Source of the DNA: Thermorudis peleae
GTDB lineage: Bacteria > Chloroflexota > Chloroflexia > Thermomicrobiales > Thermomicrobiaceae
Assembly: GCF_000744775.1 (NCBI RefSeq)
Contig: NZ_JQMP01000004.1
Coordinates: forward strand, 620,001-684,000
Length of the DNA: 64,000 nucleotides
Direction: 5' to 3'
Below are positions 28,978 through 38,748 of this stretch, piece by piece. The translations under genes and the position numbers were made by a program. Within the stretch, counting starts at the first letter, position 1; each line of letters begins with the position of its first letter. The notes beneath the pieces were generated by a model. It was given only the letters and a program-made list of their open reading frames with translations. It did no database searches and was not told where the DNA came from.

Positions 28978-28985
28978 CCAGTCGG

Positions 28986-29068
28986 TGGGGGAAGTGGGAC
29001 TCGAACCCACACGCCTCATCGGCACGTGATCCTAAGTCACGCCCGTCTGCCAATTCCGGCATTCCCCC
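28986..29068 (-). tRNA. tRNA-Leu (anticodon UAG)
   Basis: The minus strand folds as an 83-nt class II tRNA: acceptor GGGGGAA/TTCCCCC with discriminator A, D-arm with GGAATTGGCAGA, anticodon stem CGTGA/TCACG with loop CTTAGGA (UAG), a long variable arm and a T-loop TTCGAGT. The bases after the discriminator are CCG, so CCA is not encoded. It reads CUA and related Leu codons. Confidence 0.95.
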
Positions 29069-33150: not shown

Positions 33151-34290
33151 CTAACGCTGTTGCGGAACCAACCGCACAAGACGATCGGCTAATGCCTGAC
33201 GGACAAGTTCGCCAAACTGCTGTGTAGAAAGCGCTCGCTCCCCCGGCCCAGCGAGATCCGCTGTCCGCGCTCCTTCATCGAGAACAGCAGCGACAGCATC
33301 TTCAACGGCCTGCGCCACATCAGCGCGATCAAGCGTCCAGCGCAAGAGCATGGCAACACTGAGGATCGCACCGATTGGGTTGGCGATTCCTTTGCCGGCG
33401 ATATCCGGCGCAGAGCCATGGACTGGCTCGTACAGCCCAAAACGGCGGGCAACGGTCCCGGGGCGCGTCGGCGGCTCGCCATGCAGGCTCGCTGACGGCA
33501 ACATGCCAAGCGAACCAGCGAGTACCGCGGCTTCATCACTCAGAATGTCACCAAACAAGTTTTCCATTACCAGGACATCAAAGTCTCTGGGCCGACTGAT
33601 CAGGCGCATGGCACATGAGTCGACGAGCGCATGCTCAAGCGTGATTCCGGGATAGTGCGACGCGACTTCTGTCGCGATTTCGCGCCAAAGCTGTGATGTA
33701 TTCAAGACATTAGCTTTGTCAACGCTCGTCAACTTGCCACGCCGCGCCTGGGCGAGTTCGCAGGCAAGGCGCACGACACGGGAAATTTCGTGCTCGGTGT
33801 ATGGCAGCGTATCAACCGCATGGCGCGCGCCCGCATCACGGGCGACGAATGACGGCTCGCCAAAGTAGAGACCGCCCGTAAGCTCGCGGACAATCAGTAA
33901 ATCGACACCACGCACGATCTCGGGTTTCAGGGGGGTACGATCGGCAAGCGCATCGAAGACCTTCACCGGGCGCAAGTTTGCAAACAGCCCGAGCGCCTTC
34001 CGCAGACCAAGCAGGCCAGCCTCAGGGCGGGTCGCTTTCGGCAGATGATCCCACTTCGGCCCACCAACGGCGCCAAGTAAGACCGCGTCCGATTGACGGG
34101 CAGTCTCAATTGTGTCTTCGCGCAACGGCACACCGTCAGCATCAATTGCCGCGCCCCCGATACGGTCTTCTTGGAAACGAACCGCCAGCCCTAACGCGTG
34201 ACATGCTTGCTCTAAGACCGCTTGGGCTTCGGCGAGCACCTCCGGCCCGATGCCGTCGCCTGGCAATACAAGGAGACGAAGCTCGCTCAT
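33151..34290 (-). CDS. leuB: 3-isopropylmalate dehydrogenase
   Basis: LeuB oxidises and decarboxylates 3-isopropylmalate with NAD+ to 2-oxoisocaproate in leucine synthesis. The 379-residue protein shows LPGDGIGPEV, GAVGGPKWDHLP, the substrate-binding FANLRPVK and RELTGGLYFG, the catalytic Lys in TSVDKANVL and the metal-binding NLFGDILSDEAA. It also has the NAD-binding PVHGSAPDIAGKGIANP, with Asp/Ile-type NAD specificity as expected for LeuB rather than isocitrate dehydrogenase. It is the last gene of leuACDB; its ATG overlaps the leuD stop by 4 bases. Confidence 0.97.
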   Translation of the reverse strand: MSELRLLVLPGDGIGPEVLAEAQAVLEQACHALGLAVRFQEDRIGGAAIDADGVPLREDTIETARQSDAVLLGAVGGPKWDHLPKATRPEAGLLGLRKALGLFANLRPVKVFDALADRTPLKPEIVRGVDLLIVRELTGGLYFGEPSFVARDAGARHAVDTLPYTEHEISRVVRLACELAQARRGKLTSVDKANVLNTSQLWREIATEVASHYPGITLEHALVDSCAMRLISRPRDFDVLVMENLFGDILSDEAAVLAGSLGMLPSASLHGEPPTRPGTVARRFGLYEPVHGSAPDIAGKGIANPIGAILSVAMLLRWTLDRADVAQAVEDAVAAVLDEGARTADLAGPGERALSTQQFGELVRQALADRLVRLVPQQR

Positions 34291-34796
34291 GAGGCGTGCT
34301 GCCTCGCCTTCAGCCGCTCAGCCACTGCGGCCATCAGCCCGCCAGCGTGAATAATCTGCTGAATAAATTCGTCGTACTGCGTCGCCTTATAGGTCTTGCC
34401 GGTTCGCGTGTTCGTTACCGTTCCAGCTTCTGTGTCAATTTCGATCACATCACCAGTTTCGGTCTCAGCAACCGCCTCCGGTGCCTCAATGACTGGCAAG
34501 CCAATGTTGATCGCATTGCGGAAGAAGATCCGGGCGAAGGATTCCGCGACCACGGCCTGTACGCCAGCCGCTTTAATCGCGATCGGTGCATGCTCGCGCG
34601 AGGAGCCGCAGCCGAAGTTCCGCCCGGCGACAATAATGTCGCCGGGCTGCACCTTGCTCGCAAATTCTGGGTCAATGTCTTCCATGACGTGAGCAGCCAG
34701 CTCTGCTGGATCAATGGTGACGAGGTAGCGAGCTGGGATGATCACGTCAGTGTCGATGTTGTCACCGAACTTCCACACGCGTCCACGAATTGCCAT
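34287..34796 (-). CDS. leuD: 3-isopropylmalate dehydratase small subunit
   Basis: LeuD is the swivelling small subunit of isopropylmalate isomerase and pairs with LeuC. The 169-residue protein is of the short archaeal-like type, with [16 protein letters not shown] at the start and the conserved [16 protein letters not shown] and [13 protein letters not shown] segments. The start at 34796 ([11 protein letters not shown]) is clear from the family N-terminus; a longer frame to 35045 runs into leuC in antiphase. There is a 19-base gap after leuC and a 4-base overlap with leuB. Confidence 0.96.
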
Positions 34797-34815
34797 CTTC
34801 CTGTCTCCGCCTTTC

Positions 34816-36075
34816 CTAATTAAGCTGGGCTGGCGAGGCAACGCGCCCGAGCACGGCGCTGGCAGCCGCAACTGCTGGTCCGGCCAGAATGATTTCCGCA
34901 TCACGATGGCCCATGCGACCACGGAAATTGCGGTTGGTTGTCGAGACGCATCGCTCACCCTTGGCCAAGACGCCCATGTAGCCGCCGAGGCAGGGGCCAC
35001 AGGTCGAGGTCGAGAAGACTGCGCCAGCCTCAAGGAAGATCTCATCCAGACCTTCTTTGGTGGCCTGCTTTGCTACCTCCTGGCTACCGGGGATGACGAT
35101 GCAACGCACACGTGGGTGAACTTGCCGTCCTTTCAAAATTTCCGCCGCGATGCGCAGGTCACTGAGGCGACCATTCGTGCACGAGCCAATGACGACCTGG
35201 TCAATCGGCAGATCGCCAACGTCATCGGCCGGGTAGACATTCGACGGCAAGTGCGGCAGCGCAACGAGTGGTCGCAGATTTGAGACATCGAATTCAATCA
35301 CCTGGGCGTACTTGGCATCGGGGTCGCTTTCCACTGGCTCATACGGCTTATCGGTCACCTTCGCAAGCCATTCGCGGGTCTTTTCGTCAAAACCGAAGAT
35401 GCCAGTCTTTGCCCCAGCCTCGATCGCCATATTGGCCATCGTAATGCGGTCATCGACCGGCAACGCATCAATGACTGGGCCGGTGAACTCCATGCAGGCA
35501 TAGAGCGCGCCATCGACACCGATTTGACCAATGGTATAGAGGATGAGATCCTTGCCGCCGACATCCGGCGGGAGCGTGCCCTTGTAGACGAACTTGATTG
35601 TCGGCGGCACGCGCATCCATGTTGTTCCAAGCGCCATCGCAGCGGCGATGTCCGTTGAGCCCATACCCGTGGCAAAGCAATTGAACGCTCCATAGGTGCA
35701 GGTGTGGGAATCACCGCCGATAATGACCATGCCTGGCAGGGTAAGGCCATTTTCAGGCAGGACAACGTGTTCGATGCCAGCGCGACCGATTTCAAAGTAG
35801 ATCGCCCCCTGAGCAAGGGCAAATTCCCGCATGATCTTGGCCTGCTCAGCAGCTTTAATGTCTTTGGCCGGGACGAAATGATCCGGCACAAAGACCACTT
35901 TCTTGGGATCAAAGATGCGATCAACACCGACCTTCTGCAATTCGGCGATGGAGAGTGGGGCAGTGATGTCGTTGAGCATGATGAGGTCAACTGCGACCTC
36001 GACGATATCCCCTGGCTCGACCTTACTACGGCCAGCGGCGCGAGCCAGGATTTTTTCCGCCATTGTCATACCCAT
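34816..36075 (-). CDS. leuC: 3-isopropylmalate dehydratase large subunit
   Basis: LeuC carries the [4Fe-4S] cluster that isomerises 2- to 3-isopropylmalate. The 419-residue protein is of the shorter archaeal/HacA-like type. Cluster cysteines are in VIGSCTNGR and STCGPCLGG, with substrate residues in GGDSHTCTYGAF and the HRDAEIILAGP C-terminus. It starts 3 bases after the leuA stop, with GGAGG inside the end of leuA. Three in-frame ATGs (36075, 36069, 36063) are possible starts. HacA-type homoaconitase is a theoretical alternative, but the leu operon context settles the role. Confidence 0.96.
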   Translation of the reverse strand: MGMTMAEKILARAAGRSKVEPGDIVEVAVDLIMLNDITAPLSIAELQKVGVDRIFDPKKVVFVPDHFVPAKDIKAAEQAKIMREFALAQGAIYFEIGRAGIEHVVLPENGLTLPGMVIIGGDSHTCTYGAFNCFATGMGSTDIAAAMALGTTWMRVPPTIKFVYKGTLPPDVGGKDLILYTIGQIGVDGALYACMEFTGPVIDALPVDDRITMANMAIEAGAKTGIFGFDEKTREWLAKVTDKPYEPVESDPDAKYAQVIEFDVSNLRPLVALPHLPSNVYPADDVGDLPIDQVVIGSCTNGRLSDLRIAAEILKGRQVHPRVRCIVIPGSQEVAKQATKEGLDEIFLEAGAVFSTSTCGPCLGGYMGVLAKGERCVSTTNRNFRGRMGHRDAEIILAGPAVAAASAVLGRVASPAQLN

Positions 36076-36077
36076 GG

Positions 36078-37607
36078 CTACCGTCGTACCTCCGTTGTGA
36101 CTAAAGCCGACCGGTTTAACGCCATCAGATAGGCCTTAATGCCCGCCTCGATAATGTCCGTTGCCACGCCGCGGCCATTATAAACAGCCTCACCGCAGCG
36201 CAAGCGTACAGACACTTCTCCCTGCGCATCTTCCCCCGGGGTAACCGCCTCGATGTGGAACGCTTCAAGCTCACACTGGTGGCCAACGAGCCGGTCGATT
36301 GCCTTAAAGAGCGCATCGATCTGGCCATTGCCGGTTGCGGAGGCTTCGCGTTCTTGGCCATCGACCTTCAGCTTCACCCACGCTTCAGCCCGTCCATCTG
36401 AACCAGAATGAGCGCGCCAGCCGAGGAGTTGATATCGCTCAGGAACCTGCGAGAGTTGCTCCTCGACGATCGCAATGAGATCAGCGTCGGTCACCGTCTT
36501 CTTGCGATCGCACAAGGCAATGAAACGCTGATACAGCTCTTCAACGCGCTCCCGCGGCAGATCGCCATAGCCCAATTCGCGCAGTCGCGCGGTGAAGCCA
36601 GCACGGCCGGAGTGCTTGCCGAGGACAAGGCGGCTGGCTTCCCACCCGACCGATTGGGGTGTCATGATCTCGTAGGTCGCTCGGTGCTTGAGCATGCCGT
36701 CTTGGTGAATGCCTGCCTCATGCGCAAAGGCGTTGGCGCCAACGATGGCCTTGTTGGGCTGGACGTGAATACCGGTGATCCGTTGGACAAGTTTGCTCGT
36801 CGGCACCAGTTGCTCAGTAACAATCCGCGGCAAGATGCCGCCATAGTAGTCACGGCGGGTATGCAGCGCCATCACGACTTCCTCGAGCGCAGTGTTACCC
36901 GCACGCTCACCAATGCCATTGATCGTGACCTCAACCTGACGAGCGCCAGCTTGCACCGCAGCGAGTGTATTGGCCGTTGCTAAACCAAGGTCATTGTGGC
37001 AGTGCGCGCTCACGACGACACGCTCGATGCCCGGCGTATGCTCGATGATGAAGCGGACAAGTTGAGCGAACTCCTCAGGTGTTGCATAGCCCACGGTGTC
37101 AGGGATATTGATCGTGGTTGCGCCAGCTTGGATCGCCGTGGCGAAGATCCGGCAGAGGAAGTCCGGGTCACTGCGAGTCGCATCTTCGGCCGAGAACTCG
37201 ACATCACTGACATAGCGACGGGCACGAGCGACGGCCGCGTAGGCGAGCTCAACAACTTCATCGGGAGTCTTGCGCAGTTTGTACTCCATGTGAATGGGCG
37301 ACGTGGCGATGAACGTGTGAATGCGCGGCGATTCAGCAAAACGCAAAGCTTCCCACGCCGCGTCAATATCGGCATCATTGGCGCGCGCCAGGCCACAGAC
37401 AACCACGCCTTTGACCTCGCGCGCGATGCGCGCGACAGCCGCGAGATCGCCTGGTGAGGCAGCGGGGAATCCAGCTTCAATGACATCAACGCCAAGCTTC
37501 ACCAACTGCCGCGCAACCTCAATCTTCTCGTCTTCCGTCATCGTTGCGCCGGGCGACTGCTCGCCGTCACGCAGCGTTGTATCGAAGACAATCAAGCGCT
37601 CTGTCAT
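36078..37607 (-). CDS. leuA: 2-isopropylmalate synthase
   Basis: LeuA condenses acetyl-CoA with 2-oxoisovalerate, the first committed step to leucine. The 509-residue protein has the DRE-TIM barrel with DTTLRDGEQSPGA at the N-terminus, the metal site in VSAHCHNDLGLA and NGIGERAGNTALEEVV, and a HEAGIHQDG segment. A C-terminal LeuA allosteric domain (from about residue 385) binds leucine for feedback control. AAGGAGG lies 6 bases before the ATG at 37607. It is the first gene of leuACDB and lies behind a leucine T-box at 37857-38075, so control is at both transcription and enzyme level. Confidence 0.97.
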   Translation of the reverse strand: MTERLIVFDTTLRDGEQSPGATMTEDEKIEVARQLVKLGVDVIEAGFPAASPGDLAAVARIAREVKGVVVCGLARANDADIDAAWEALRFAESPRIHTFIATSPIHMEYKLRKTPDEVVELAYAAVARARRYVSDVEFSAEDATRSDPDFLCRIFATAIQAGATTINIPDTVGYATPEEFAQLVRFIIEHTPGIERVVVSAHCHNDLGLATANTLAAVQAGARQVEVTINGIGERAGNTALEEVVMALHTRRDYYGGILPRIVTEQLVPTSKLVQRITGIHVQPNKAIVGANAFAHEAGIHQDGMLKHRATYEIMTPQSVGWEASRLVLGKHSGRAGFTARLRELGYGDLPRERVEELYQRFIALCDRKKTVTDADLIAIVEEQLSQVPERYQLLGWRAHSGSDGRAEAWVKLKVDGQEREASATGNGQIDALFKAIDRLVGHQCELEAFHIEAVTPGEDAQGEVSVRLRCGEAVYNGRGVATDIIEAGIKAYLMALNRSALVTTEVRR

Positions 37608-37636
37608 GGTGACCTCCTTGCCTTGCGTAACAGCTC

Positions 37637-37657
37637 GGCCTCCCGCGCGGGGAGGCC
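37637..37657 (-). other. GC-rich hairpin just before leuA
   Basis: GGCCTCCC (37637-37644) and its complement GGGAGGCC (37650-37657) form an 8-bp stem with a 5-base loop, 30 bases before the leuA start. The bases after it on the minus strand are not T-rich, so it is not a clear terminator. It could modulate translation or be the end of a second attenuation device. Confidence 0.5.
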
Positions 37658-37687
37658 GGCAACGGGCAACGGGTTATCGTCCGCAGG

Positions 37688-37810
37688 CTACCTTTGCCGC
37701 ATGCCGGCACTCCGCGTGGCCCCTCCGCGGGGCTGGCTAAGGACGAGCCCAGCAAGAAGGCTTCGTGGAGCGGTATGGATACTGATGTGTTGCAGCGAGC
37801 AGTTGTCCAT
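37688..37810 (-). CDS. possible leader ORF between the leu T-box and leuA
   Basis: The 40-codon frame starts with ATG at 37810 after a good GGGGAGG and contains a Leu-rich part (SLLAGLVL) among Arg and Gly residues. It lies after the T-box terminator and before leuA, so it would only be transcribed when the T-box reads through. It could be a leucine-sensing leader peptide or a chance frame in GC-rich leader DNA. No homologue is recognised. Confidence 0.3.
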   Translation of the reverse strand: MDNCSLQHISIHTAPRSLLAGLVLSQPRGGATRSAGMRQR

Positions 37811-37856
37811 CCGATACCTCCCCGTAACCCGAAATACTATCGCTCCATAAAGCAGC

Positions 37857-38075
37857 GGCCCGCCCCCGAAGGGACGGGCCGTCCGTGGTGCCACCCTTCT
37901 TGGCGTTTTGCCCCAGCGGGACAGAACGCCCACTCTTCGCGCTATAACGGGCGCTCCCGGCACTAACTCAGAGAACAGTCACCTCGCTAGCGCAGCTCCG
38001 GGGCGAGTTCGCGCCTTTCATCCCGACCAGGCTCCCACCGCTCCCTGGCTCGCTCGACGGAGGTAAGGCGCTACT
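37857..38075 (-). ncRNA. T-box riboswitch (leucine) of the leuACDB operon
   Basis: On the minus strand the conserved T-box AAGAAGGGTGGCACCACGG lies at 37883-37901, followed by a 10-bp terminator stem closed by a UUCG loop (37857-37880) and a short T-containing tail. Upstream, stem I shows AGCGGTGGGAGCC (38030-38042), typical of the distal loop, and GAA-CTC-GCC with the specifier CTC at 38005-38007, a leucine codon. Uncharged tRNA-Leu would pair with CUC and with the antiterminator bulge and allow read-through into leuA. The T-box and terminator are seen directly; the exact limits of stem I are inferred. Confidence 0.9.
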
Positions 38076-38748
38076 ACTCCCCATCTCCGCCATTTGGGGA
38101 AGATGGTAACAGCATTGACGGAGTGCTGTCAAGAGGTCGTGGCACATAACTTGGACAGGCCAAGAGCGTATCCGCGTCGCTCAGCGACCGGCGGAAGAAC
38201 TGGCACCAATGCGGCTCGGGGCCATCTGGTGCGGCATTTTCAACGAAATAGTGGCATCCGGCACAGGGCTCAGCAACAACGACACGATAGCCGGTCTGCT
38301 GCAGCGCTTGGCTCAGCGCTTCTAGTCCGCGCTCAAGCATCGCCAATGCATCAGCATCGACGTGGACAAGCGCGGCTTCGAGCCGCTGCCCAAACTGATT
38401 CAATTGCTGGCAGACTGCTTCACCGTCCGGCGTGAGATTCAGGAGCGTCACCCGGCGATCACGCGCATCGGTGTAGCGCGTCATCCAACCGCGACGCACG
38501 AGACCATCAATGATCCCAACAGCCGTTGCATGCGTTACCCCAAGCGCTTCAGCCAACCTCCCGACTGATGTTAGGAAGGGTTTGGTGTAGCGAACGAAGA
38601 GCAACGCCTCGGCTTGCGTCGGCGTTAACCCAAGCATGGCAGCCTCATCCGCGAGCATCGTTCGGATGGTATGACTCAAGCGGATGAGCCCGATACCGAC
38701 CTGCGCGCCACGCGATTGCGCGCGTACAGCAGGGTCGTAGATTGTCAT
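38074..38748 (-). CDS. MarR-family regulator with C-terminal cysteine cluster
   Basis: The 224-residue protein has a MarR winged helix (about residues 20-150: LGLTPTQAEALLFV, SVGRLAEALGVTHATAVGIIDGLVRRGW, TDARDRRVTLLNLTP). A C-terminal extension follows with Cys162, Cys165, Cys182 and Cys198, plus His166 and His180 (CAGCHYF ... HWC ... CPSY). Four cysteines in this spacing could bind zinc or an iron-sulfur cluster, making it a possible redox or metal sensor. The start at 38748 has GAGGAGG 5 bases upstream; a longer frame to 38889 is not supported. The leu T-box promoter lies inside its 3' end. Confidence 0.85.
   Translation of the reverse strand: MTIYDPAVRAQSRGAQVGIGLIRLSHTIRTMLADEAAMLGLTPTQAEALLFVRYTKPFLTSVGRLAEALGVTHATAVGIIDGLVRRGWMTRYTDARDRRVTLLNLTPDGEAVCQQLNQFGQRLEAALVHVDADALAMLERGLEALSQALQQTGYRVVVAEPCAGCHYFVENAAPDGPEPHWCQFFRRSLSDADTLLACPSYVPRPLDSTPSMLLPSSPNGGDGE
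38103..38132 (-). promoter_or_regulatory. promoter of the leu T-box transcript, inside the marR-like gene
   Basis: On the minus strand TTGACA (38127-38132) and TACCAT (38103-38108) are 18 bases apart. The start site would fall near 38096, within the last codons of the MarR-family gene and just before stem I of the T-box. Confidence 0.5.

Follow-up and report, generated by a model that had tools for sequence, protein, structure and literature searches.

The leuACDB operon of Thermorudis peleae is preceded by a T-box, and about 230–250 bases that hold a second element separate the terminator of this T-box from leuA. Does the T-box alone set the expression of the operon, or does the transcript sense leucine a second time before leuA is reached? 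Leucine T-boxes have been described on the ilv-leu operon of B. subtilis (PMC5794164) and on leuA of Geobacter and Pelobacter, and Dehalococcoides is a published case of T-boxes in the Chloroflexota (both PMC2494555). Since neither a leucine T-box on leuA nor a T-box in this phylum is new, the T-box part of this locus by itself is ordinary. A sequence-only reading of the window (the whole stretch of 64,000 nucleotides analysed here) had described T-boxes on leu operons as known in Firmicutes and some Actinobacteria; leuA T-boxes do extend beyond Firmicutes, in the Geobacter and Pelobacter cases named in PMC2494555, but the actinobacterial T-boxes named in PMC1262725 are on ileS.

The T-box and its tRNA

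The genes downstream match models of LeuA, LeuC, LeuD and LeuB, in agreement with the operon proposed from the sequence alone, and the assignment to a probable Chloroflexota genome fits the closest named LeuA proteins (84–86% identity), which come from Thermomicrobiaceae, from Thermomicrobium contigs and from one unclassified bin. The covariance-model search that the sequence-only reading had suggested, run over the whole window, returned one T-box, a full-length match to RF00230 (model positions 1–219) at 38096-37867 of the minus strand with 108.1 bits against a gathering threshold of 93 and an E-value of 6.3e-23, which confirms the T-box. The span originally given, 37857-38075, leaves out about 20 bases at the 5' end of the T-box, while the stem I with specifier CTC and the UUCG-capped terminator were both recovered, the former with CUC at 38007-38005 and the latter as an 11-bp stem at 37881-37856. 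The features of this part of the locus are the following.

33151..36075, minus strand: leuC, leuD and leuB (NCBIfam models)
36078..37607, minus strand: leuA (NCBIfam leuA_bact)
37856..37881, minus strand: T-box terminator, 11 bp, UUCG loop, weak tail CTGCTTTATG (sequence scan)
37867..38096, minus strand: T-box leader RNA, stem I to antiterminator (RF00230, above cut-off)
37896-37887, minus strand: T-box core GGGTGGCACC (read from the sequence)
37890..37893, minus strand: UGGC of the antiterminator bulge, with the variable base C37890 opposite A73 of tRNA-Leu(GAG) (sequence and alignment)
38005..38007, minus strand: specifier codon CUC (Leu) in the loop GAA-CUC-G (read from the specifier loop)
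38103..38132, minus strand: sigma-70-like promoter TTGACA-18-TACCAT with TG before the second hexamer (consensus match only)

The promoter pattern gave one match against a mean of 0.1 in shuffles, and the match ends six bases upstream of the T-box. The 3' end of a MarR-like gene, encoded on this strand too, covers both the match and the start of the T-box (38074-38132). The specifier pattern GAA[T]CTC[AG] is present in 25 of 27 aligned leaders, the exceptions being G013, which exceeds the distance limit of the pattern, yet has a specifier visible by reading, and G019, where the contig starts inside the T-box. The score of the window T-box exceeds those of four full-length leuA T-boxes of relatives (77.5, 89.6, 98.8 and 106 bits).

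The CUC specifier fits the leuACDB pathway, and the genome encodes the cognate tRNA-Leu(GAG) at L182; this tRNA has the discriminator base A73, as do all five leucine tRNA species found. Because the discriminator of tRNA-Leu(GAG) is A73, the antiterminator bulge is expected to read UGGU, as it does in the leuS T-box of the same genome. The variable base is U in 26 of the 27 aligned leaders and C in the window alone; the window thus has the UGG of the bulge, but at the variable position its C stands against A73 and does not complement it. We take the mismatch at C37890 to be a covarying detail of the family that does not exclude the window T-box from RF00230. Among the leucine tRNAs themselves, tRNA-Leu(TAG), at 28984-29068 of the window, starts with GGGGGAA, and the other four start with GCCGAAG or GCCGAGG.

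The genome (G000) has six T-box matches with E < 0.001, three of them above the cut-off. They sit on leuS (CUC), leuA (CUC), trpE (UGG), ileS (AUC), thrS (ACC) and a lysX-type gene; the names leuA and lysX were checked by NCBIfam, and the others are our own reading of translated frames. The T-box that precedes the lysX-type lysine synthesis gene (L006; G000:C1:335233-335487, minus strand) scores 77.4 bits, below the cut-off, and its specifier is probably AAG (Lys), shifted by one base from the Rfam register.

The tail of the window's T-box terminator is as weak as the sequence-only reading had remarked, but close relatives have the same trait. A run of at least four T is absent from all 11 leuA T-box terminators of g1, g5 and g6 and present in all 12 of g3, g4, f3 and f4 (our labels for genera, g, and families, f), so that the weak T-run characterises the leucine leaders of a group of related genera. 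Elsewhere in this genome, the T-boxes of ileS and lysX carry T5. As an account of the locus, then, the proposal of a leucine T-box was correct in the identity of the T-box, in the operon and in the phylum; it missed the mismatch between C37890 and A73 and the second element before leuA.

A leader ORF and alternative pairings upstream of leuA

The second element consists of a leader ORF and the hairpins within and behind it.

37688..37810, minus strand: leader ORF MDNCSLQHISIHTAPRSLLAGLVLSQPRGGATRSAGMRQR, 40 residues, with the Shine-Dalgarno-like GGGGAGG at 37823-37817 (corresponding ORFs in relatives)
37739..37741, minus strand: conserved CUU codon immediately 5' of hairpin A (comparison of leaders)
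37719..37733, minus strand: hairpin A, GCCCC-GCGGA-GGGGC, within the leader ORF (sequence; same position in relatives)
37703..37715, minus strand: segment 2, which can pair with segment 3 as a candidate antiterminator (pairing tests)
37633..37660, minus strand: hairpin B, -21.8 kcal/mol, formed by segment 3 (37658-37650) and segment 4 (37644-37636), terminator-like and without a U-tract

Hairpin B lies 25 bases upstream of leuA. Searched against Rfam at E up to 10, the second element gave no credible family match; the best match, PhotoRC-I, was rejected at 19.7 bits against a cut-off of 45 and is located on the T-box terminator.

The leucine codons of the leader ORF are CTG, CTT, CTT, CTC and CTT, and the last four fall within seven codons, in the peptide ...RSLLAGLVLSQPRGGATRSAG.... 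CUU and CUC are decoded by tRNA-Leu(GAG), the same tRNA that is called by the CUC specifier. With leader start codons picked by eye, the peptides of relatives read at the corresponding place ...RLSLSRPRGGATRRAG... (g5), MIHGISSLLQLSLSRPRRGAIGDAGRL (g6), MAARYLDLLGLFLLSLLRPLGGARGALGGCP (g4) and ...LELTGPRIGATCGMSGD (g3), two of the three genus g4 peptides reading LDLLGLFLLSLLRPLGGA; in f3 and f4 they read ...RLLLSPPR, ...SLLLTRPHRGAI, ...LVNLMLTKPLAGAA and ...RRDLTRPGYGP. In ten genomes, one per genus, CTT makes up 21 of 53 leucine codons in the leaders versus 12 of 325 in leuA (Fisher p 2.5e-12), a count in which ten of the 21 leader CTT are the conserved anchor codon and which becomes 11 of 43 without the anchors. 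The ten codons before the anchor CTT contain 34 leucine codons among 150 in the ORF frame versus 5 and 16 among 135 in the other two frames (15 leaders). In the window alone, leucine codon bias was not significant (4 of 5 CTY versus 300 of 560, p 0.24), and a clear coding signal was absent from the distribution of variable sites of the leader ORF over codon positions 1, 2 and 3 (20, 15 and 26). In G027, the leader frame before leuA (L115) has no early stop and runs up to the gene, which it overlaps by ATGA. Leader and leuA would then be translationally coupled, and ribosomes would be carried through hairpin B.

Segment 3, the 5' arm of hairpin B, is predicted to pair either with segment 2, at the end of the ORF, or, as hairpin B, with segment 4. 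The 2:3 pairing comprises 12 bp in g4, 10–11 bp with a bulge in g6 and, in the window, eight core pairs and a bulge. Against dinucleotide shuffles of a 36-base stretch behind hairpin A, a region fixed after the pairings had been seen, it reached p < 0.025 in 15 of 16 leuA leaders (G020, of 17, omitted) and p 0.008 in the window, while mononucleotide shuffles gave p values up to 0.15 in genus g5. A longer segment-2 region gave a weaker signal, with 13, 48, 158, 114, 83, 12, 12, 6 and 35 of 300 shuffles equal or better in nine leaders. Two leuS leaders have an unbroken 2:3 pairing of 14 bp (p 0.001), and in the leuS leaders of G020 and G021 the signal was absent (p 0.36 and 0.44). In an alignment of all 17 f1 leuA leaders, registered by hand with genus-specific bulges, one column changes from C-G to U-A in genus g3, where the U of segment 3 faces an A in segment 2 as well as in segment 4, so that both pairings are kept. 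When segment 3 was exchanged between four genera, the outcome was moderate: the arrangement in which each keeps its own ranked second of 24 and outranked all others in 36 of the 72 member combinations, among 13 of the 17 f1 leuA leaders (the window, G020, G014 and G017 left out). Comparison of the f1 leaders indicates that mutually exclusive 2:3 and 3:4 pairings exist in this one family, at modest statistics.

Folding of eight of the 17 f1 leuA leaders, in which upstream partners were not restricted to segment 2, bears on when the choice between these pairings could be made. When a ribosome occupied the CUU and the RNA ended before segment 4, segment 3 was paired upstream with a probability of 0.82–1.00 in all eight; it was also paired upstream without a ribosome (0.70–1.00) and still partly so with the ribosome at the stop codon (0.14–0.73). 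In the full RNA, hairpin B wins in seven of the eight even with a stalled ribosome, and the folds gave no protector of segment 2 in the untranslated RNA of these eight leaders. Because hairpin B is favoured in the full RNA and segment 3 pairs upstream without a ribosome, any antitermination would have to be kinetic and be decided during transcription.

No U-tract follows hairpin B in the window, nor in g1, g5 and g6. The tails are GTTTTTGTTT or GTTTTCTGTT in g3 (T5 or T4), GTTTTTGTTG in g2 (T5, at a contig end) and the weak GTTCGTTTATC in two g4 leaders; hairpin B and the T-box terminators thus split nearly alike by genus in their T-tails. Lacking a hairpin B U-tract and with a mismatch in its T-box, the window is among the less convincing members of its group.

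Distribution of the paired elements

A T-box, a leader ORF and the CUU are found upstream of leuA in all 23 leaders read (17 in f1, five in f3 and one in f4), and hairpin A, degenerate in G004, follows the CUU in the leuA leaders of all three families, establishing the order T-box, ORF, CUU, hairpin A in three families at the level of sequence. A clear hairpin B is confined to f1; no comparable hairpin B was recognised in f3 and f4. Incomplete records include G009, with hairpin B alone at a contig end, G011, where a contig end cuts the leader before the gene, and G010 and G025, without a LeuA match.

The four leuS leaders of genus g5 (L102-L105) also carry a T-box, a leader ORF and hairpin A. 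Each of these leuS genes has its own T-box, leader ORF and hairpin B, the T-box being 81–89% like the leuA T-box of the same genome (210 of 259, 132 of 159, 230 of 259 and 212 of 260 positions). This identity suggests that the double leader of g5 was copied onto leuS as one unit.

Upstream of leuA in f2 and f5, the T-box core pattern was found in none of 16 stretches of up to 600 bases, and the leader element was likewise absent before all 16; the ilvC motif is on the same fetched piece as leuA in all 16, from which leuA seems to follow ilvC in these families. In 11 regions upstream of leuA in f2 and f5, a pattern search found the core once, in an apparently coding stretch. Outside f1, 23 of the 40 genomes of the order were searched.

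Of 61 genomes in the order, 18 contain the CTTA hairpin motif, as do three of 97 other genomes of the class; a reversed-motif control hits 14 of the 61 and seven of the 97. Because the control matches so often, the motif count says little, and it is the position of the matches that is informative: 21 of the 27 places listed are before leuA (17) or leuS (4). Of the other six, L087 is the complementary strand of a place of this kind, L190 (in G011) is a T-box leader truncated at a contig end, L194 is unrelated, and three are outside the order.

Outside the five relatives, 74 of 75 other leuA loci were scanned by pattern (L014, with 29 bases upstream, omitted). A T-box core was found in five of the 74, namely L033, L038, L040 and L082 (Clostridiales/Eubacteriales) and L053 (557 bases away), and the CTTA hairpin motif as written in none. 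Because the scan motif required GGCCC or GGTCC at one fixed distance, it missed a proteobacterial form: seven of nine leuA leaders examined, all seven proteobacterial and mostly alpha, have CTTA[GC]NN followed by GCCCC, and the Thermomicrobiales leaders mostly have CTTA[GC]NN followed by GGCCCC. By pattern, no T-box core was found within 600 bases in those seven. Towards their ends, the ORFs of these leaders (L037, L054, L071, L072, L081, L029 and L086) encode L[STR]xP by CTTA[GC]..GCCCC, and a CAGGGG farther downstream is complementary to a CCCCTG at the end of the ORF; with the Thermomicrobiales they share the CTTA start.

Two proposed sensors of one leucine tRNA

Altogether, our results favour a model whereby the leuACDB transcript opens with a T-box, followed in series by a ribosome-mediated attenuator that reads the same tRNA-Leu(GAG), and we consider this model likely to be right. 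In the model, uncharged tRNA-Leu(GAG) would pair at two sites, the CUC specifier and the UGGN bulge, and thereby prevent the first terminator. When charged tRNA-Leu(GAG) is short, a ribosome translating the leader ORF would slow at its CUU and CUC codons and leave segment 2 free, so that segment 2 would pair with segment 3, hairpin B would not form and transcription would continue into leuA; with leucine plentiful, the ribosome would reach the stop codon and cover segment 2, and hairpin B would form and may terminate transcription. Full expression would need both switches open and would thus respond more steeply to the loss of Leu-tRNA than with either switch alone. Because neither terminator in this genome has a good U-tract, each is expected to be leaky or to be aided by a factor such as Rho or NusG. 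In its most specific form, the model is a two-input AND-type switch on one isoacceptor, in which the T-box would measure uncharged tRNA-Leu(GAG) and the leader peptide the shortage of its charged form; the two would stand one behind the other ahead of leuA, and leuS of one genus has both as well, probably copied as a unit. For this form we see the chances as evenly balanced.

The part that each element plays could be distributed differently. If the T-box does everything, the region downstream would be a long 5' UTR holding the remains of a decaying attenuator, and the missing U-tract of hairpin B in the window would fit, as would the lack of a comparable hairpin B in f3 and f4 and the leuS gene of G000, where about 70 bases separate the T-box terminator from the gene and hold no leader ORF. 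We nevertheless think this unlikely, given that the ORF and its CUU are kept in 23 of 23 leuA leaders of f1, f3 and f4 and that the 2:3 pairing stands out against shuffles in the window itself. Conversely, the T-box could be impaired here, with the leader-peptide attenuator alone carrying leucine control, and a C found in the window alone against the A73 of every leucine tRNA species points that way; yet this T-box outscores four full-length counterparts in relatives and has an intact stem I and specifier, a single C-A mismatch may be tolerated, and the C could be a sequencing error, so that we give this reading a similarly low probability.

A second element acting on translation, like the LEU element of Actinobacteria, where the run of leucine codons pairs with the leuA Shine-Dalgarno sequence, would suit the similar place and leader peptide described there (PMC1262725) and a short complementarity, UCCUU:AAGGA, in the window. 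Pairing of the leucine run with the Shine-Dalgarno sequence reached p < 0.05 in none of the 23 leuA leaders, however, and in two of four leuS leaders (0.030 and 0.036), which leaves the LEU-type base stem unsupported on leuA and makes this the least probable of the alternatives, one we regard as very doubtful. The serial model with both sensors at work thus remains our preferred one, and it probably raises the locus from an ordinary leucine T-box to a double leucine sensor.

Compared with the leucine T-boxes of B. subtilis ilv-leu and Geobacter leuA, the window is alike in the RF00230 family, the leucine specifier, the leu genes and the terminator as output, and unlike them in its added leader-peptide element, its variable C instead of U and its weak T-run. 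Leucine leader peptides are known in enterobacteria and staphylococci, including the attenuator peptide of S. aureus ilv-leu (PMC5794164), and E. coli leuL (RF00512) and S. aureus ilv-leu have a leucine-rich peptide before leu genes, as in the window. The actinobacterial LEU element, too, is a leader peptide with leucine codons before leuA (PMC1262725), as here, but its base stem is not supported in our leaders. A 2025 survey of contiguous riboswitches describes leuA genes of Bacillota that carry T-box/T-box or T-box/guanidine-type tandems and finds tandem riboswitches marginally enriched in Thermomicrobiota, and its main text does not contain the term "leader peptide" (PMC12452182); the Bacillota tandems resemble the window in having two serial RNA sensors, the second of which is a riboswitch there and a leader ORF here. 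In the open-licence literature, we found neither a T-box followed by a leucine attenuator nor a serial sensor of both charge states on a biosynthesis operon and a synthetase, and a prior mention in the main T-box surveys (PMC2271356, PMC2650889) is possible.

The closest precedent is the rtpA (anti-TRAP) leader of B. subtilis, which reportedly has a T-box and a Trp leader peptide (Chen and Yanofsky 2003, 2004, as cited in PMC11255114) and thus joins a T-box and tRNA-dependent stalling on one leader for the tRNA of one amino acid. It differs from the window in using tryptophan, in preceding the gene of a regulatory protein and in having translation as its second output, whereas the leader described here uses leucine, stands before a biosynthetic operon and has a terminator-like hairpin for which an alternative pairing exists. 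T-boxes and ribosome-mediated attenuation are usually presented as the alternative answers of different lineages to one problem, and the tryptophan case is, to our knowledge, the only combination of a T-box with a leader peptide. Leaders that appear to hold both sensors, on leuA and in one genus on leuS, make it possible to ask what the second adds, be it steepness, speed or protection against leak, and how double leaders arise or decay. They would extend the idea of a T-box joined to a leader peptide from tryptophan to leucine and to another phylum.
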